Shown: positions 1-5,756 of the stretch, in pieces
How the letters are laid out: each line of letters opens with the position of its first letter
Numbering within the stretch: position 1 is the first letter of the stretch
NCBI GenBank assembly: GCA_015058265.1
Contig: SVCR01000122.1
Span: 1 to 5,756 of the forward strand
Direction: 5' to 3'
DNA length: 5,756 nt
DNA from: Clostridiales bacterium
GTDB taxonomy: Bacteria > Bacillota_A > Clostridia > Peptostreptococcales > Anaerovoracaceae
The notes under the pieces: generated by a model
Databases searched by the model: none
Told to the model about the DNA's origin: nothing
Seen by the model: only the letters and a program-made list of their open reading frames with translations
Program-made: the position numbers and the translations under genes

Positions 1-627
1 TTGTCTCTTGAGTTCCAGCTGTCTTTCGGTCTCTCTGATTCTGCTGATACAGTCGTCAGTGAAGCCCTGATTGTCTGTGGTCATCACTGTACCGTGGTCA
101 TCGATGACCACATATGGAGCTTTGCGGCCATAGTTCTCACTTAGCATCAAATAATAAAGCTTCCCATCAATCATGGCTGAGTCTGCCGCCATCCAGCTGC
201 CTTTACGGCCGTCTATCATGTACCCGGCAGTATCAATCGATATAAGCGCCGCGGATGATGGTTGGCCGAAGAAGTCCGGCAACAGTATCAGGCGGTTCGG
301 ATCAACATAATACGCCAGAGTAAGGCCGTCCTTGGTCGTTGCAATAACATCGCCCACTTGTAATAGCTTCCGCTCTGTTCGATCCAAAACGCTGCCGATA
401 TTATGAATACCTCTGTCGTCATCTCCCTTTTCAAGCCGCTCCCGGATTTCTCTGACAGTCTCGCTGCCATTAAGTACTTCCTTTTTCACCATCCTGTAAT
501 CACGTACGCGGACGCTGATGTTATGTCTCTGCAGCTCTTTATATGGTCTGTACAGTAAAGCCTGTCTTATGCGCTCCGGATATCTCTCCGGCACAGGCTT
601 ATACAGTTCATAGTAGCTGGCAGCCAT
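1..627 (-). CDS. YodL-like domain protein, N-terminal 209 codons (3' end outside window)
   Basis: The frame is open from the ATG at 627 to the left edge without a stop. Residues 5-120 follow the layout I remember of YodL domains from Clostridial conjugative elements: YYELY near the start, YRPYKELQRHNISV and DYRMV, a segment with an acidic helix, then VGDVIATTKDG, LAYYVDP and LLPDFF. YodL is a domain of unknown function, found alone or in larger multi-domain proteins. A second module follows: after about residue 130 comes MIDGKLYYLMLSENYG (152-167), PYVVIDDHGTVM and NQGFTDD, perhaps one of the 'large polyvalent protein associated' domains such as LPD28 (uncertain). The visible end (ETERQLELKRQ) turns helical and charged. 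The ATG shares one base with the preceding stop (TGATG) and no Shine-Dalgarno is visible, so it is probably translated by reinitiation. A GTG directly before it (630) is in frame. Confidence 0.75.
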   Translation of the reverse strand, partial: MAASYYELYKPVPERYPERIRQALLYRPYKELQRHNISVRVRDYRMVKKEVLNGSETVREIRERLEKGDDDRGIHNIGSVLDRTERKLLQVGDVIATTKDGLTLAYYVDPNRLILLPDFFGQPSSAALISIDTAGYMIDGRKGSWMAADSAMIDGKLYYLMLSENYGRKAPYVVIDDHGTVMTTDNQGFTDDCISRIRETERQLELKRQ

Positions 628-971
628 CACATTTTCATGATCGGTATTGAGCCGTTATAGTCTGGATCAACCCAGATGAAGTCTACCGGTGAATGCAGTC
701 CCGCCAATCCTGAGACAAATGCGTATTCATCATAATCGCTGTCAGCATCCTCATAGTAGCCTTCAAATACAGCTTCTGAATAATTGAGATCAAGATAGTC
801 TCTATCTGTCATGTCCTCAACCTTCCCGATAACGCTGATGACCAAATCAAACATCTCGCGGTCTCCCTCGAGTTCAGTCAATGCCGCCCTCATATTATCC
901 AGGCACTCCTGCCTGCTGTCACAGTCAAATAATTCAAGTACTGTAAGTTCGTCTATATCAAAATACATCAT
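627..971 (-). CDS. TTRAP-like small protein (transposon-transfer assisting family) with C-terminal extension
   Basis: Residues 4-65 follow the pattern I remember for the transposon-transfer assisting protein family: FDIDELTVLELFDCDSR, then a helical stretch with MRAALTELEGDREMFDLVIS, then GKVEDMTDRDYLDLNY. That family is made of small proteins (roughly 65-75 residues) encoded in Clostridial conjugative elements. The name implies help with transfer, but I know of no defined mechanism. This protein is 114 residues long; the extra 45-50 residues are acidic and aromatic (EGYYEDADSDYDEYAF, then SPVDFIWVDPDYNG) and unlike the usual member. The ATG at 971 overlaps the ardC stop as ATGA, with GGAGG at 986-982 about 10 nt upstream; a second ATG directly follows. 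It is probably cytoplasmic, with no signal peptide or membrane segment. The family assignment is by eye. Confidence 0.78.
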   Translation of the reverse strand: MMYFDIDELTVLELFDCDSRQECLDNMRAALTELEGDREMFDLVISVIGKVEDMTDRDYLDLNYSEAVFEGYYEDADSDYDEYAFVSGLAGLHSPVDFIWVDPDYNGSIPIMKM

Positions 972-2140
972 ATCGCCTGCTCCTCCTTTTTTGGCTCAAT
1001 CGCTTTCCCGCCTTTCCCAATACCGGATTCCCTGTTGACCATGTCACGCTTATCACGCAGATCCTGAAGAAGAGACTCTCGTCTGCCGACTGTTGGACTG
1101 CTGACTACCTGAACCGGGGCCTTATCAGCAACCATATCCGGTTTCTCTTTCCCCGGCTCTGCGTAAGACTTGTTCTGCTCGCTGCGTTCTACCGTCAGCT
1201 GCAGCATTTCTGCCTCAAGGTCATTTATTATCATTGACGAAGTCTCCTGAATCGTTTCAAGTGATGCGTGCAATTCTTTCAGATCCGGGCTGCTGGCATA
1301 GCTCACCAGATAGGGAAAGCTGTAATCACCGACATCTTCAAATCCGAAGTGTGTCAGGCACACAAGTGCACAGCCCTCTGCCTCGGTCTCGATGATCCCT
1401 TTATCCTTTGGATTACCATCGGGAGTCAGCATCTTCGATCTGTCATCATGTAAGACGCTGTGAACGAGCTCATGGCAGCATGTTTTCAATGTCTGCAGTT
1501 CAGGCATCCCTCCCTGAATAACGATCTCCTTGTTTGCTCTGTCATAGTACCCTTTCGCTCCGCCTTCAATATCTGCAAACCTTATCGGCACAGGAGCAAT
1601 ATTCCTGATCGCTTTGAGGAACAGATCATAATTCTCAACACTTGCCTGCAGTTCCTTGATACCGAGAGTAGGCAGCGGTCGGCCGCTGGTCTGTGAATAA
1701 TCAAAGACCGAGACTGCCTTAAACCTCGGGATCGTTATCTCCTTAGTCTCTTTGAGCGGCTTGCCGTCACTGCCCATCAGAGCCTTACCGGTTGATGGAT
1801 CCATCCTGTCCACTTCGCGTGTGGTTTTATATGGCGCAGGTGCTATGATCCGTATGCCCTTCTCACCCTTATTTACCTGCCGGCCGAATTTCTTCTTCCA
1901 ATCAGAATACGAAGCTATCATGGTGCTGTCCGGCTTCTGCAGGAATATGAGAAGAGAGTTCCGATATGAATATCTGTGGAATTTTGCCATAGTCTGCATG
2001 TATGTGCGGAATGAGTCTGAATTCAAGATGCCGCGACATCCTTCTTCGATTTGTCCGGTTATCTCAGCTATCCGTTCTTTCCGCCTGGCTTCTATCTCCT
2101 GATAGCTCAGCTTGCTTTCGGTTTTGTTTTCTTCTGCCAT
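968..2140 (-). CDS. ArdC-like protein: ssDNA-binding type N-terminal region plus zinc metallopeptidase motif
   Basis: This 390-residue protein has the ArdC-like layout. After a charged start, residues 38-100 (DSFRTYMQTMAKFHRYSYRN, SLLIFLQKPDSTMIASYSDW, KGEKGIRIIAP) match the N-terminal region that binds single-stranded DNA in ArdC. Residues 138-160 (PRFKAVSVFDYSQTSGRPLP) continue the family pattern. A gluzincin-type peptidase region follows: His223, Glu224 and His227 in CCHELVHS, with a third metal ligand probably Glu253 or Glu255 in ETEAEGCALV. The last 75 or so residues look disordered and hold RESLLQDLRDKRD (1081-1043). ArdC of plasmid pSa is an antirestriction protein reported to protect incoming ssDNA and to travel to the recipient; the same role here is inference. 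The ATG at 2140 has GGAGG 7 nt upstream. The stop overlaps the next start as ATGA. Two adjacent cysteines (221, 222) precede the motif. Confidence 0.92.
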   Translation of the reverse strand: MAEENKTESKLSYQEIEARRKERIAEITGQIEEGCRGILNSDSFRTYMQTMAKFHRYSYRNSLLIFLQKPDSTMIASYSDWKKKFGRQVNKGEKGIRIIAPAPYKTTREVDRMDPSTGKALMGSDGKPLKETKEITIPRFKAVSVFDYSQTSGRPLPTLGIKELQASVENYDLFLKAIRNIAPVPIRFADIEGGAKGYYDRANKEIVIQGGMPELQTLKTCCHELVHSVLHDDRSKMLTPDGNPKDKGIIETEAEGCALVCLTHFGFEDVGDYSFPYLVSYASSPDLKELHASLETIQETSSMIINDLEAEMLQLTVERSEQNKSYAEPGKEKPDMVADKAPVQVVSSPTVGRRESLLQDLRDKRDMVNRESGIGKGGKAIEPKKEEQAI

Positions 2141-2161
2141 TGCTTTTCCTCCATTTAAAGA

Positions 2162-2188
2162 GCAGCCCCATCGCCGTGACGAGGCTGC
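2162..2188 (-). promoter_or_regulatory. hairpin in the radC-ardC gap, overlapping an 11-codon mini-ORF
   Basis: The 81-nt gap (2141-2221) is the longest untranslated stretch in the window. Read on the minus strand it holds GCAGCCTCGTC, a 5-nt loop ACGGC, and GATGGGGCTGC: an 11-bp stem with two G-T wobbles. It ends 10 nt before the ardC ribosome binding site (GGAGG, 2152-2148). Only TCTTTAAA follows, not a run of T, so it is a poor intrinsic terminator; partial termination, RNA processing, 3'-end stabilisation or control of ardC translation are all possible. The stem lies within a mini-ORF, ATG at 2190 to TAA at 2157-2155, coding MQPRHGDGAAL, which could be a leader peptide but has no clear ribosome binding site. 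I see no convincing -35/-10 pair in the gap. Confidence 0.5.
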
Positions 2189-2221
2189 ATATACTGTTTG
2201 TGATTCCGCTGCCGATATTGC

Positions 2222-2944
2222 CTACAGTGACGGATCTGTCTTCTTCGGTCTTGATAAGCCGTGCGGATGAGTGGCTTGCTGCAGCTTTTCGATCAGCTCT
2301 ACATGACGGGGATTGAGCACAACTTCTGTCTCTGCCTTTTTGTCATTCAGCCGATCTATCACCGAAGGCTTCTTCTCGTTCGAATCTGCCACGCTGCTGA
2401 TCTCAGGAAATACCGACATGTCCCACATTCCTTCGAACAGCTCCGGATGATTCTCTTTGAAGCTGTATATCTCGCCGCTGTAGGCTCCTATGATCAGGTG
2501 ATCAATGACCTGAATGCCGAGAAGTTTGCCTGCATTGACAACTCTTTTTGTGACCTGAATGTCATCAGTACTTGGATCTGTCAGGCCGCTCGGATGATTA
2601 TGAGCCAAAAAAATTGCCGATGCATTTTGCATGATCGCGACCTTGAACGTATTCTGAATTGGCACAACTGAAGAGCATGTGTCGCCGATCGATATCACTG
2701 AGTACGAAATGGGTCTGAGTTTATTGTCAGTAGACACGACGCATACCATCTCGCGATCCAGCTCTCTCATCACATCCGCAAGGACTCTGGCTGCATCACC
2801 GGCCTCACGAATCGGAGTCGAACTGTAGAGACCGCCGGACTCTTTGAGGACGAGTCTGACACTTACCTCTTTGAGCTCATAGTCATTGAGTGACAGCTGC
2901 TCTGAATCCATGGTCATTGATGTATCCTTTTTCTTCCTCGCCAT
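2222..2944 (-). CDS. radC: RadC-family JAB/JAMM domain protein (short, no N-terminal HhH region)
   Basis: This 240-residue protein has the RadC/JAB domain at about residues 25-165. The JAMM metal site is visible: Glu65 in DREMVCVV is the likely glutamate, His115 and His117 are in AHNHPSG, and Ser125 to Asp128 give the S-x-x-D. The flanking RadC signatures VVPIQNTFKVAIMQNAS and IDHLIIG...YSF are also present. The N-terminal helix-hairpin-helix part of chromosomal RadC (about 220 residues in total) is absent; about 25 residues of another kind replace it, and about 75 residues follow the JAB core. The function of RadC is unsettled; it is not the DNA repair enzyme once proposed, and short versions are common ICE passengers. 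The ATG at 2944 has GGAGGAGG 6 nt upstream (2958-2951), inside the preceding gene. The tail holds KPSVIDRLNDKKAE (2371-2330), like segments in two other proteins here. TAG stop at 2224-2222. Confidence 0.93.
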   Translation of the reverse strand: MARKKKDTSMTMDSEQLSLNDYELKEVSVRLVLKESGGLYSSTPIREAGDAARVLADVMRELDREMVCVVSTDNKLRPISYSVISIGDTCSSVVPIQNTFKVAIMQNASAIFLAHNHPSGLTDPSTDDIQVTKRVVNAGKLLGIQVIDHLIIGAYSGEIYSFKENHPELFEGMWDMSVFPEISSVADSNEKKPSVIDRLNDKKAETEVVLNPRHVELIEKLQQATHPHGLSRPKKTDPSL

Positions 2945-3089
2945 GCTTCGCCTCCTCCAGTTGTATCACCAGCATCTCATCATCCATCACCTGTCTGAAG
3001 AGACTTATAAACGCTGCTTTCAGCTCATCGGCATCTTTTACTGTGACAGTCACCTTGACACTGTCTTTATCTGCTGTCCGGCTTGTCAT
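2883..3089 (-). CDS. hypothetical small protein (68 aa) between topB and radC
   Basis: I do not recognise this protein. The ATG at 3089 is chosen because GGGAGG at 3103-3098 lies 8 nt upstream. The ATG at 3095 is only 2 nt from it, and a TTG at 3125 has no ribosome binding site. The gene starts 23 nt inside the 3' end of topB and ends 62 nt inside radC, so it is probably co-translated with both. The sequence suggests a small beta-alpha-beta fold: a strand (VKVTVTV, residues 9-15), an amphipathic helix (DADELKAAFISLFRQVMDDE, 17-36), a strand (MLVIQLEE), then a charged tail. There is no signal peptide or Cys/His cluster. A role as a small partner of TopB or RadC is inference from position only. 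The last 20 or so codons share DNA with radC, so conservation there may reflect RadC instead. Confidence 0.65.
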   Translation of the reverse strand: MTSRTADKDSVKVTVTVKDADELKAAFISLFRQVMDDEMLVIQLEEAKHGEEEKGYINDHGFRAAVTQ

Positions 3090-5211
3090 CAGCATCGCCT
3101 CCCTTCTTCCCTCCAGGGAATTCAAGTTTCAAACGTGCTTTTCCATCTTCTACAGTCATTACAAGTTCAGCATTAAAGAGCTTGCCGCTCTTCCGGGAGT
3201 ACAGATCCTTTACATATGATCTGCCTGATGAAATAAGGTCCTCAGCTACCTGTCTGGTCATCTTCTTTCGCATGCTCCCAAGATATCGGTCTTCCCTCCA
3301 CAGGCAGAACCTGCAGTTATCAGCTGAGCAGTAGAAGGTTTTAGGTCCTTCATATATCGGGGACCCGCATACGGGGCACTTTCCCAACGAAGTCCTTTTC
3401 TCTGTCTTTCGGACGCGGTACTTTGTCCTTTCGCTCTCCGGGATTCGTCTTAGCTCTTCTAACAGATATATGATCTGAGCTGTGACATCATCGATAAAGG
3501 AATCCGGATCAGCGTTGCCGCGCTCCATCTCCAGCAGCCTGTTCTCCCACTCGGCTGTCATATCAGCTGATTTCAGATAGTCAGGCACAAGTGAGATAAG
3601 AAGCTTTCCCTCGTCTGTAGGCAGTAGCTGCTTCCCTTTTCTTCTGACGTATCTTGCCGAAATAAGCTTTTCTATCGTTGCAGCTCTGGTGGCAGGAGTT
3701 CCGAGTCCCTTGCGCTCGACATCTTCATCCATATAGCTGGCTCCTGCTTTCTCCATAGCAGAGAGCAAAGTGCCTTCCGTAAAGTGTTTTGGCGGCTGCG
3801 TCCAATGATCGGTTAGATCGCTTTCAACTGCCGGTATCAGATCGCCTTCTGCTGCCTCTGGCAGAGCAGTCTTGCTTATATCCTTATCAGCCTTATCTTC
3901 CTCAGGTTCGCCTGTCTTGTAGTAGTTTTTAAGAGCATCCTCATAAGTCTTCCATCCAGGTTCGTCGATCTGTTTCCCCTGCGCTACGAACGGGTATCCA
4001 TTGCAATCGATCAGAGCGCTGGTCAGTGTGTACCTGTGAGCTACATCCGTTGCGCACAGAAGTCTGGTTCCTATCAGCATGAGCAGCTTCGAGTCCGCAT
4101 CTGCAAGTTTTGTCAGGTCTGCGCCCCGTATCTCTGCTGTTGGAATGATCGCATGGTGGTCAGAGACCTTCTTGTTATTCATGATCCTGTCGATATCCGA
4201 ATAGTCTCGCCCGATCCCGAATGGAAGAATGCCGGGCAAAGCCTGTATGATCGACAGCACCGTATCTCCCATATCCTCCGTAAGAAACTTACTGTCTGTC
4301 CTCGGATATGTGATCAGCTTGTTTTCATAAAGCCTCTGAGCGGATTCGAGGGTCTGACTGGCTGTCATGCCAAACAGTCTGTTAGCGTCCCGCTGCAGCG
4401 AAGTAAGGTCATACAGTTTTGGCGGAGCCACAGTTTTAGACTCAGTCTTCACTGCTGTGATGCGTGCGTCCATTCCATTACATGCCGCAGCGACAGACTC
4501 CGCCTCTCCTCTATTCATGTATCTCTTGGAAACAGCATTCAGCCCATCTTTTCGGATGTGTACAAGGTAGTACTGCTCTTTGGTAAATCCGCTTATTGAA
4601 CTTTCCCGGTCAACTATCATTGCCAGGGTCGGTGTCATCACTCTTCCTACTTTGAGCACCCTCCCGTATGTTGTCGTAAGAGCCCTTGTGTCATTCATTC
4701 CAATCAGCCAGTCTGCTTTTGCTCTGCAGATCGAAGCAGCTCCAAGCGCATCATACGCTTCACTGCTTCTGAGATTTCTGAAGCCTTCAAGTATCGCCTT
4801 GTCCTCCATAGAGGATATCCAGAGTCTCTTTACGGGGAGCTTTGACTTTGTCAGCTCATACACCCGGCGGAAAATGAGTTCTCCTTCACGCCCGGCATCG
4901 CAGGCATTGACGATATACTCTATCTGACGGACAGAACTTGAGAGGAGGTTCTTGATCACACCATATTGCTTTTTCTTATCCTGGGATATGCTCAGTCTCC
5001 ACTCATCAGGGATGACGGGCAGATCGTCGAATCGCCAGACCTTGTACTTCTCATCGTAAAACTCAGGATTGTTGAACTCTGCAAGATGTCCAAGGCACCA
5101 GCTGACAATGCAGTCATTGCCAGCCAGATACCCGTCCTCCTCCCTGTATGCTCCGATCACATTAGCAATAGATCTTGCCACGCTCGGTTTTTCTGCTATC
5201 ACAAGGTACAT
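3067..5211 (-). CDS. topB: DNA topoisomerase III (type IA), mobile-element type TopB
   Basis: This 714-residue type IA topoisomerase cuts and rejoins one DNA strand through a 5'-phosphotyrosine and decatenates or unlinks DNA with single-stranded regions. The Toprim domain starts at MYLVIAEKPSVA (Glu7, Lys8) and continues to CDAGREGELIF (Asp105, Glu109, Glu111). The domain that follows has ICRAKADWLIGMNDTRALT (about 161-179) and GRVMTPTLAMIVDRE (189-203). The active-site tyrosine is Tyr302 in ITYPRTDS. Further on are the conserved HFTEGTLLSAME and GLGTPATRAATIEKLI segments. A C-terminal Cys4 zinc ribbon (Cys612, 615, 628, 633) precedes a topoisomerase C-terminal repeat ending near KSGKLFNAELVM. 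The ATG at 5211 gives the canonical N-terminus and has AGAAGGTG upstream (about 5226-5219). The second acid of the usual Toprim DxD is Gly107, as I recall in many element-borne TopB proteins. Length and domains are complete. In ICEs and conjugative plasmids it is thought to help processing of transferred DNA. It overlaps a small gene at each end. Confidence 0.97.
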   Translation of the reverse strand: MYLVIAEKPSVARSIANVIGAYREEDGYLAGNDCIVSWCLGHLAEFNNPEFYDEKYKVWRFDDLPVIPDEWRLSISQDKKKQYGVIKNLLSSSVRQIEYIVNACDAGREGELIFRRVYELTKSKLPVKRLWISSMEDKAILEGFRNLRSSEAYDALGAASICRAKADWLIGMNDTRALTTTYGRVLKVGRVMTPTLAMIVDRESSISGFTKEQYYLVHIRKDGLNAVSKRYMNRGEAESVAAACNGMDARITAVKTESKTVAPPKLYDLTSLQRDANRLFGMTASQTLESAQRLYENKLITYPRTDSKFLTEDMGDTVLSIIQALPGILPFGIGRDYSDIDRIMNNKKVSDHHAIIPTAEIRGADLTKLADADSKLLMLIGTRLLCATDVAHRYTLTSALIDCNGYPFVAQGKQIDEPGWKTYEDALKNYYKTGEPEEDKADKDISKTALPEAAEGDLIPAVESDLTDHWTQPPKHFTEGTLLSAMEKAGASYMDEDVERKGLGTPATRAATIEKLISARYVRRKGKQLLPTDEGKLLISLVPDYLKSADMTAEWENRLLEMERGNADPDSFIDDVTAQIIYLLEELRRIPESERTKYRVRKTEKRTSLGKCPVCGSPIYEGPKTFYCSADNCRFCLWREDRYLGSMRKKMTRQVAEDLISSGRSYVKDLYSRKSGKLFNAELVMTVEDGKARLKLEFPGGKKGGDADDKPDSR

Positions 5212-5381
5212 TGATCATCACCTTCTGTCTCATTGTCTCCGCAAAGCTGGTCCATACTGCCACCGGAAACGTTTCCTGCACCATGATTCTCTGCGATTAC
5301 CGCCAGCTGCGAGCTGTAATGATTTTTTCTGGCCGTCTGTGCGGCTTTCTTCTCCACAACATTGATTGGTTCTATCAACAT
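5199..5381 (-). CDS. hypothetical small protein (60 aa) upstream of topB
   Basis: I do not recognise this protein. I chose the ATG at 5381 (MLIEPINVVEKK...) because GGAAGGTGA at 5395-5387 is well placed for it, with about 8 nt from the GG pair to the ATG. A GTG at 5390 is in frame but lies inside that ribosome binding site. The stop (TGA, 5201-5199) overlaps the start of topB by 13 nt, so translation of the two is probably coupled. The product is hydrophilic, with no signal peptide, membrane segment or Cys/His metal site. The N-terminal half is mixed and basic (EKKAAQTARKNH); the C-terminal half is Gly/Asn/Asp rich and acidic (GDNETEGDDQ), probably disordered. Support is the ribosome binding site and its fit between two genes. 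It could be a poorly conserved spacer ORF, although no longer ORF competes for the space. Confidence 0.6.
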   Translation of the reverse strand: MLIEPINVVEKKAAQTARKNHYSSQLAVIAENHGAGNVSGGSMDQLCGDNETEGDDQCTL

Positions 5382-5407
5382 AACAGTCACCTTCCTTCCC
5401 CTTATCT

Positions 5408-5756
5408 CTATATCGCTATGCCCGGCTGGCGATGGATTCCCCTACCGGACTGCTCGCCTATATCAAGATGCTCTTTCTTATCCTGCAGCTTCCCAAGCAG
5501 CGATCCTCTGTCTGAATGACGCTCCGCTGCTTTCTCTGCTGTACGGGTCTCAAAGCGCTCAGCGAGCTCAAATATCTTCTCCTGCGAATCATAATGAAAC
5601 ACGTTATCTGACAGCCGGTCTACTGGATCCACCACCGTACGGTTGGCGCTTCTTACCATCTCCTCCAGATCAGGTCTGTTAAACTTGCCGTTATCTGGCA
5701 CCGCGATCCACTCATGTGTCGAGGATGGGAGCAGGAAATAATTGCCATTGAATCTG
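5408..5756 (-). CDS. DUF5688-like protein, C-terminal part (5' end outside window)
   Basis: The frame is open from the right edge (first whole codon at 5755-5753) to a TAG stop at 5410-5408, giving 115 visible residues. The first part reads NGNYFLLPSSTHEWIAVPD, then a DLEEMVRSAN segment and LSDNVFHYD. This order (PSS-x-HE, EMV-x-x-x-N, LSD-x-V-[FY]-x-Y-[DE]) is what I recall of the C-terminal end of DUF5688 proteins, a family of unknown function common in Clostridial mobile elements; the match is from memory. About 60 charged residues follow the LSD motif, longer than I expect for the family, and include RGSLLGKLQDKKE (5509-5471), which resembles tail segments of the RadC-like and ArdC-like proteins downstream. 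An in-frame GTG at 5701 is internal, because the family motif begins before it. No catalytic residues or membrane segment are visible. It is the most upstream gene seen; 26 nt separate it from the next start. Confidence 0.8.
   Translation of the reverse strand, partial: RFNGNYFLLPSSTHEWIAVPDNGKFNRPDLEEMVRSANRTVVDPVDRLSDNVFHYDSQEKIFELAERFETRTAEKAAERHSDRGSLLGKLQDKKEHLDIGEQSGRGIHRQPGIAI

Follow-up and report, generated by a model that had tools for sequence, protein, structure and literature searches.

A shared two-part C-terminal tail on unrelated proteins of Tn1549-like elements, and its possible role as a signal for conjugative type IV secretion

C-terminal signals that direct proteins to type IV secretion systems (T4SSs) are known in Gram-negative bacteria. 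For instance, the effectors of the Agrobacterium VirB/VirD4 system have the consensus R-x7-R-x-R-x-R near their ends. Other signals, such as the BID domain and the TSA and TSB signals of relaxases, are folded domains. Here we describe a short tail that is shared by unrelated proteins of Gram-positive conjugative elements. We identified it in a 5,756-nucleotide stretch of DNA from a Clostridiales bacterium (contig SVCR01000122.1 of assembly GCA_015058265.1; hereafter, the window), which we take to be part of a Tn1549-like element.

Like the Agrobacterium signals, this tail is C-terminal, is positively charged, and occurs on unrelated proteins. Unlike them, it combines a serine-started helix with a lysine-rich end, and it is found in Gram-positive elements. 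The Agrobacterium arginine pattern is absent from 99 accessory proteins that carry the tail (hereafter, carriers) and from 20 PcfB proteins, and is present in one of 24 MobQ relaxases. A relaxed form of the pattern that accepts lysine or arginine is found in 4/99 carriers and 7/20 PcfB proteins. Unlike the folded BID and TSA/TSB signals, the tail is short, with a helix that is predicted at low confidence. The role that we propose is similar: BID domains recruit substrates to VirD4-type receptors, and so do the TSA and TSB signals in the sections of PMC12624023 and PMC8406263 that treat them.

Two further described systems are also close. According to the passages on protein transfer in PMC8406263, the F-type plasmid pED208 co-transfers SSB, PsiB, and ParB in a manner that depends on the coupling protein. 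Our carriers would likewise be establishment helpers that are delivered beside the DNA. But pED208 is a Gram-negative system with unrelated proteins and with internal relaxase signals (TSA and TSB), and a common tail is not described in those passages. The polyvalent proteins of Iyer et al. (2017, PMC5512222; the name Tn1549-like is used there as well) belong to the same classes as our carriers (ArdC, YodL, LPD domains, and the methylase-helicase) and are discussed as invasion-phase effectors. In the main text of that paper the term "secretion signal" is absent, and its passages on these proteins draw neither a shared tail nor a link to relaxases.

Three Pfam families overlap the tail: DUF4316 (PF14195) in YodL and ArdA proteins, the end of DUF3801 (PF12687) in PcfB, and the end of DUF6674 (PF20379) in DUF6674 proteins. 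The DUF4316 matches in YodL-LPD18 and ArdA proteins overlap the start of the motif. None of these families covers the signal as a unit: among 54 isolated tails, 6 match DUF3801, 1 matches DUF6674, and none match DUF4316 (E 0.1), and the window's proteins do not match any of the three at E 0.01. In the titles, abstract beginnings, and passages of the open-licence literature, we found no description of a tail or signal common to proteins of these elements, and no paper on DUF4316. What would be new is this form of signal and how broadly it occurs in Gram-positive elements.

The original prediction for the window, made from its sequence, was that three unrelated proteins have a matching segment near their C-termini. 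Translation of the minus strand confirms all three segments, and Pfam confirms the families of these proteins:

5408..5755, minus strand: DUF5688 protein, C-terminal piece; extends past the window's end (Pfam PF18941, E 8e-17)
5471..5509, minus strand: DUF5688 tail motif RGSLLGKLQDKKE (from the translation), starting 33 residues from the end
2222..2944, minus strand: RadC/JAB protein with tail (Pfam PF04002, E 4e-34)
2330..2371, minus strand: RadC tail motif KPSVIDRLNDKKAE, starting 49 residues from the end
2225..2254, minus strand: last 10 residues of RadC, SRPKKTDPSL, putative second part of the signal (C-terminal score 8.02)
968..2140, minus strand: ArdC-N plus M78 metallopeptidase protein (ArdC) with tail (Pfam)
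1043..1081, minus strand: ArdC tail motif RESLLQDLRDKRD, starting 37 residues from the end
971..1000, minus strand: last 10 residues of ArdC, IEPKKEEQAI, putative second part of the signal (C-terminal score 8.39)

The D-K-[KR] ending that had been proposed for the segment does not hold in general: the motif that the tails have in common is wider, and there is another shared part within the last ~10 residues. Overall, the tail begins with a helix-start motif, [KR]-x-S-[VIL]-x-x-x-L-x-x-x-[KRQ], and continues as a flexible basic stretch that ends in approximately K-K-x-E-x-x-[L/I/V] (KKTDPSL in the window's RadC and KKEEQAI in its ArdC). The motif starts 30–38 residues from the end in 151 of 172 distinct tails.

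To examine the distribution of the tail, we used 80 species-genome loci around relatives of ArdC. Among simple open reading frames (ORFs) from these loci, the motif [KR].S[VLI]...L...[KRQ] matched 143 times within 70 residues of the C-terminus and 6 times elsewhere, or 2.65 versus 0.019 per 1000 residues. This placement (143/149 matches) is as expected for C-terminal type IV secretion signals. With genes from a codon model, 146/601 had the motif in their last 60 residues, while shuffled tails gave a mean of 0.88 and a maximum of 5 in 100 rounds. The motif was also enriched in relaxase-anchored loci (25/238 genes; 0.33 expected by shuffling), and it was rare in viral loci (17/910; 0.71 expected) and in random chromosome pieces (5/564; 0.52 expected). 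The chromosomal control comprised 40 random 20-kb pieces from three chromosomes. With simple ORFs, the control gave 5/731, of which three were in one element (L231), one was a PcfB (L234), and one was in an ORF that seems to be in the wrong frame. The simple ORF caller sometimes chose wrong frames, and the position statistics and this 5/731 control rest on it; the family counts below use codon-model genes. These controls for position, chromosome, and shuffling rule out chance or composition as the source of the motif. The predicted enrichment over chromosomal tails is borne out, with the comparison being to all chromosomal tails and not just to disordered ones.

Within elements, a family tends to have the tail in nearly all of its members or in none. 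Counting distinct tails with our own family models (multi-domain proteins may fall in more than one family), the motif is present in PcfB (24/28), MutS_I (14/15), ArdA-LPD18 (9/10), YodL-LPD18 (63/71), the methylase-helicase (18/23), the DUF6674 family (3/4), a family of 317-amino-acid proteins (13/14), and a further unnamed family (33/34). ArdC has it in 54/120 distinct tails, including those from viral loci. In contrast, the motif was not found in VirD4 (0/29), VirB4 (0/16), VirB6 (0/9), PrgI (0/8), C40/CHAP (0/11), DUF4315 (0/17), DUF4366 (0/31), TopB (0/30), TTRAP (0/52), MobC (0/43), recombinases (0/39), integrases (0/13), DUF6017 (0/17), or Maff2 (0/1). Three annotated elements (L210-L212) show the same split between carriers and non-carriers.

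The expectation that orthologues keep the segment holds in part. Among RadC homologues, the motif is in 13 of the nearest 20, but in just 18 of the 120 listed. The two RadC proteins in the sampled loci, both of which are ArdC-RadC fusions, lack it. In DUF5688, one of five proteins matches the strict pattern, and inspection by eye shows variants in two of the remaining four; in L060, the tail of the DUF5688 protein contains KGSLLGKLAEKK. For ArdC, 49 of the 120 listed homologues have the motif, and many of the rest are cut or have no tail. In an alignment of 15 RadC proteins (the window's RadC and 14 of its nearest 20 homologues, chosen for having the tail; one that is 99% identical and five without the tail were left out), the serine is invariant and the leucine is nearly so, while the segment that precedes the motif can be much longer or shorter from one protein to the next.

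The presence of the tail on ArdC varies with the genetic setting. Where a marker for a conjugative element was in view, ArdC had the motif in 56/64 and 29/33 cases, and in 10/13 cases on viral contigs. Of the ArdC genes in genome loci where no marker was in view, 7/13 had it. In viral loci without a conjugation marker, none of 57 ArdC proteins had the motif, and most of these end near the globular domain. So the tail is on unrelated proteins that a T4SS could serve, and it is absent from the ArdC proteins of viral loci where no such system is in view. A model of the tail was also run against 20 genomes. Among the matches listed on three large contigs, 38/40 were within 30 kb of a marker (PcfB, ArdC, or relaxase), while these zones make up 21–26% of those contigs. 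Of the two off-zone matches, one (in L225) has other carriers as well as a DUF3991/Toprim gene as neighbors, and the other (in L332) matches Mob_Pre below the threshold and is near a Tn916-type integrase.

At the variable positions of the motif, unrelated carriers from the same element are more alike than permutation would give: the mean BLOSUM62 score was 1.272 for 115 pairs, as compared to 0.713 for permuted pairs (standard deviation 0.075, maximum 0.991; P 0.0005). This set comprised 34 non-redundant elements with at least two carriers, out of 115 elements and 294 carriers, and a few of the unassigned ORFs may be spurious. For instance, in L326/L327, the motifs are RISVKEKLAQFR (PcfB), RISVKEKLAEMR, RVSVKDKLSQMK, and RISIKEKLAEKK. 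Without PcfB, the mean was 1.524 (0.817 if permuted). ArdC covaries with YodL (P 0.002), the methylase-helicase (P 0.020), hyp_A (P 0.009), and the 317-amino-acid family (P 0.022). With one element per lineage, and with PcfB and unassigned ORFs excluded, P was at most 0.003 (23 lineages) or 0.007 (11 lineages).

The basic end is distinctive as well. The last 12 residues of carriers have 3.5 K/R, as compared to 1.8 in chromosomal proteins; 57% of carriers have E or D at position -4 (17% for chromosomal proteins); and 61% end with L, I, V, or M (26% for chromosomal proteins). Among 515 chromosomal proteins, a fraction of 0.002 reach the C-terminal scores of the window's RadC and ArdC, and 0.033 reach that of DUF5688. 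Over the last 30 residues, the net charge averages +3.5 for carriers (99 tails), +4.8 for PcfB, -5.0 for VirD4 (20 tails), and -5.4 for TTRAP. VirD4 proteins, including those of L210-L212, end in an acidic stretch.

Relaxases, which are established substrates, resemble the carriers to varying degrees. The tail model matched proteins in L333 and L335 that are MobA/MobL relaxases by their match to that family (44.5 and 39.4 bits; cut-off 26.7) and that score far under the cut-off of NCBIfam's MobQ model. Both are near an integrase, and the one in L333 is also near a Tn916-Xis-like gene; we read these as small mobilizable elements. The serine motif is in 6/11 distinct tails from the group of the L333 relaxase, in 3/27 other MobQ-group tails (9/38 for MobQ overall), and in 2/23 distinct MobV/Pre tails, one of which is a threonine variant. 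In 29/54 MobP relaxases, we found [NSTQ]-[VIL]-[DA]-x-x-[LIYM] near the end. We also built a profile of the last 10 residues from the 99 accessory carriers and computed the area under the receiver operating characteristic curve (AUC) against the 515 chromosomal proteins, with L225, L231, and L234 excluded from the chromosomal set because they hold mobile elements. The AUC was 0.94 for MobQ (n=24), 0.86 for MobP (n=51), 0.87 for MobV/Pre (n=15), and 0.98 for PcfB (n=20), versus 0.28–0.72 for 13 other families from the elements. (After dropping fragments and near-duplicates, the input was 29/54 MobQ-group and 17/32 MobV/Pre-group ORFs, which were dereplicated to 24 and 15.) For a profile of the helix, the AUC was 0.88 for MobQ, 0.83 for MobV/Pre, and 0.72 for MobP. 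Finally, in two Lactobacillales plasmids that encode PcfB and VirD4 and were outside of the training set, PcfB and the relaxase rank as the top two among all 42 and 33 complete annotated coding sequences.

Because this feature is found, to varying degrees, in relaxases as well as in helper proteins and is absent from the machine itself, it is best read as substrate recognition. We think it probable, from these sequence patterns, that the tail is a bipartite C-terminal recruitment or translocation signal for the PcfB-VirD4 (CD1115-type) conjugative T4SS of Tn1549-like elements. A short helix, starting from the serine cap, would dock on the coupling complex. The mobile basic end (rich in K/R, often with an acidic residue at -4 and often with L, I, or V last) could meet the acidic tail at VirD4's C-terminus and be the first part to go into the channel. 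The opposite charges of VirD4's end and of the carriers' ends suggest such a contact, but this is just a hint, as the end of TTRAP is equally acidic. A 2025 review gives the C-terminal tail and the all-alpha domain of VirD4 as substrate sites (PMC12624023). Helpers such as ArdC, ArdA, RadC, and the methylase-helicase would then travel with the T-strand and handle the new host's defences and repair ahead of gene expression from the element. We infer that the carriers bind the coupling complex, that they are exported, and that this brings a benefit in the recipient. More tentatively, the tail may be a C-terminal address code in Gram-positive elements: the coupling complex would read lineage-specific variants (SIR, SVL, SVK, or SLL) and export a kit for anti-restriction and DNA repair with the DNA, and mobilizable elements would carry the code on their relaxases so as to ride the channel. 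The original prediction of a shared docking segment with a link to conjugation agrees with the enrichment, the split among families, the marker-less viral ArdC proteins, the covariation, and the MobA/MobL relaxases. The amphipathic helix that it invoked does less well. The amphipathic moment is barely above that of shuffled tails (0.364 versus 0.325; 119 tails). AlphaFold 2 does place a low-confidence helix directly after the serine in RadC (residues 195–206, after Ser194; mean predicted local distance difference test score of 68.9, with 46–63 around the motif), and AlphaFold places one right after Ser127 in PcfB (mean score of 58.7), again at low confidence.

Several observations weigh against a signal for export. 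The serine motif is absent from all of the distinct MobP tails (0/63 and 0/56 with two overlapping models), from 29/38 MobQ-group tails, and from 21/23 MobV/Pre tails. Median C-terminal scores are 1.4 for MobP and -1.5 for MobV, versus 8.1 for carriers and -10.4 for the chromosome. Four families that are not expected to be substrates have mildly raised scores: DUF4366 (AUC 0.70, P 4e-4), and VirB4, PrgI, and DUF4315 (P 0.02–0.04). Export does not account for the tail on PcfB, which is encoded beside the coupling protein, or for relaxases that lack the helix motif; PcfB could be a substrate, an adaptor, or a plug. PcfB pairs do not covary significantly (P 0.117, 0.937, 0.222, and 0.596), and neither does YodL with hyp_A (P 0.555). 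Some tails look copied, as 80% or more of the codons are the same in 3/62 pairs. The basic end overlaps, in part, the ribosome-binding site of the next gene, which contributes to its score. The 57 marker-less viral ArdC proteins are, in addition, less closely related to the query (mostly 27–46% identity), and element markers were sought inside the fetched stretches only. In one of the two Lactobacillales plasmids, from Enterococcus faecium, the C-terminal score of ArdC is just -3.1. Lastly, the original prediction had cited the transport of pSa's ArdC into the recipient, but this was only proposed. According to the parts of PMC7213743 on ArdC of R388, what was needed was expression in the recipient, and ArdC works when it is made there; this neither requires nor excludes export.

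The most serious alternative is that the tail docks proteins in the donor without export. The helpers would be tethered at oriT, to PcfB, VirD4, or the relaxosome, and would act there on DNA in the donor by processing or protecting it. The high prevalence of the tail in PcfB, next to VirD4, fits with this idea, as does the finding for R388 that ArdC needs no export (PMC7213743, the same parts), and all of our tests are of association rather than transfer. Yet several carriers (the anti-restriction proteins ArdA and ArdC, and the methylase-helicase) have their expected targets in the recipient, MobC is annotated as a relaxosome protein and lacks the tail (0/43), and the C-terminal ends of relaxases resemble those of carriers. 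Overall, we consider donor-side docking to be rather unlikely. A basic, disordered end could instead help DNA-handling proteins to bind nucleic acids or to coat single-stranded DNA. The positive charge of the tails and the DNA-related domains in several carriers are as expected, but the same elements' MobC, TopB, recombinases, and integrases all lack the tail, as do the marker-less viral ArdC proteins. Charge alone would not need a fixed serine, a fixed leucine, fixed spacing, or element-specific variants, and shuffled tails with the same composition almost never yield the motif, so we view a role in DNA binding as improbable.

Alternatively, recombination among the element's genes might have copied a neutral or weakly selected tail, which would explain both its spread and the likeness within elements. 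One case is in L212, where the motif DNA of ArdC's tail (21960-22061) and of the adjacent gene for a 317-amino-acid protein (22068-23021) is near-identical, with the same codon at 9/10 identical residues. Across pairs, the same codon is used at 223/498 shared residues (0.448, versus 0.340 expected). However, the few copied pairs (3/62) led us to reject recent copying as the general source. If the tail were neutral, one would hardly expect almost all lineages of the carrier families to retain it while neighbors such as TTRAP lack it. The RadC alignment, whose sequences were selected for the presence of the tail, points to purifying selection on the motif relative to the linker. We judge tail shuffling to be very improbable. 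The basic and acidic end might also be a by-product of the ribosome-binding sites of downstream genes, with AAGGAGG being read as K-E or K-G-E. In the window, ArdC ends in AAAAAAGGAGGAGCAGGCGATATGATG, and the DNA for its last 10 residues overlaps an AAGGAGG that resembles a ribosome-binding site, ahead of the TTRAP start. Carriers with the next gene within 20 nt do have higher C-terminal scores (median 12.3). But the median is still 7.4 for 25 carriers that lack a same-strand gene within 400 nt, as compared to about -10 for chromosomal proteins, and it is -6.7 for 19 TTRAPs that are closely followed by another gene. Nor does this explain the serine motif 30–38 residues upstream. The overlap adds to the signal, but as a full explanation it is barely credible, and we rejected it.

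All of the window's genes are on the minus strand, in the order DUF5688 (end), 63-amino-acid ORF, TopB, 80-amino-acid ORF, RadC/JAB, ArdC-N/M78, TTRAP, and a cut LPD18 protein. The genes besides the three carriers are:

5199-5390, minus strand: 63-amino-acid ORF with a GTG start, between DUF5688 and TopB
3067..5211, minus strand: TopB-type topoisomerase, without the tail motif; C-terminal score near background
627..971, minus strand: TTRAP protein, without the tail motif (Pfam)
1..630, minus strand: LPD18 protein, truncated by the window's start, with its tail outside of the window (Pfam)

As had been noted originally, TopB, the two small ORFs, and TTRAP lack the segment. The LPD18 protein is a predicted carrier, as 63/71 distinct tails under the YodL-LPD18 model have the motif. 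The order TopB, 80-amino-acid ORF, RadC, ArdC, TTRAP, LPD18 fits that of the annotated elements L210-L212, when compared as TopB, helper(s), ArdC, TTRAP, and then LPD18/YodL or ArdA. This is the gene order of a Tn1549-like element. While RadC and ArdC are encoded by separate adjacent genes in the window, their domains are fused in single proteins elsewhere (L050:9482-12718, L069:9437-11182, P0147, P0158, P0192, and P0200).

We also noticed possible relatives of the tail in other elements. In the E. faecium plasmid, PcfB and ArdC (L445:6617-7771 and L445:20001-21032) have a divergent tail segment in common (SLTKKLDKLEDKAQEINQQRE and SLSDQLEEFDDKAKSLNEQRE), which is possibly a relative of the motif in Lactobacillales. 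Among the matches listed, a gene for a PcfB-like DUF3801 protein directly adjoins a MobP relaxase in 14 loci (for instance, L424:1639-2493, L428:1736-2602, L432:2065-2910, and L433:1973-2836). These loci may be mobilizable elements, and the adjacency suggests that PcfB-like proteins are relaxase adaptors. By eye, 12 of these 14 DUF3801 tails lack the serine motif; those of L432 and L433 have [RK]-P-S-V-R-R-E-L further from the end. Proteins encoded around the relaxases of L424-L437 (such as L424:773-1636 and L424:4796-5500) end in related basic C-termini (KSKEQER, RERGDAR, and KCHEER), as if the end signal took a form of its own in these elements.

It's useful to consider these results in light of what is reported for Gram-positive T4SSs. 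A 2025 review states, in the portion that deals with their functions, that nearly all of the known ones transfer DNA only, and it cites the 89K island of Streptococcus suis as the exception (PMC12857230). The same portion describes protein translocation by Gram-positive T4SSs as a long-standing question and the evidence on relaxosome recruitment as limited (PMC12857230). If our proposal is correct, then the tail bears on protein delivery during Gram-positive conjugation, and a single reporter fusion could address the question. A recognizable tail would give a list of candidate protein cargo in many elements, including the vanB-bearing element of L211. It would also suggest functions for several DUF proteins, and it would hint at how small mobilizable elements exploit the channel of their helper.

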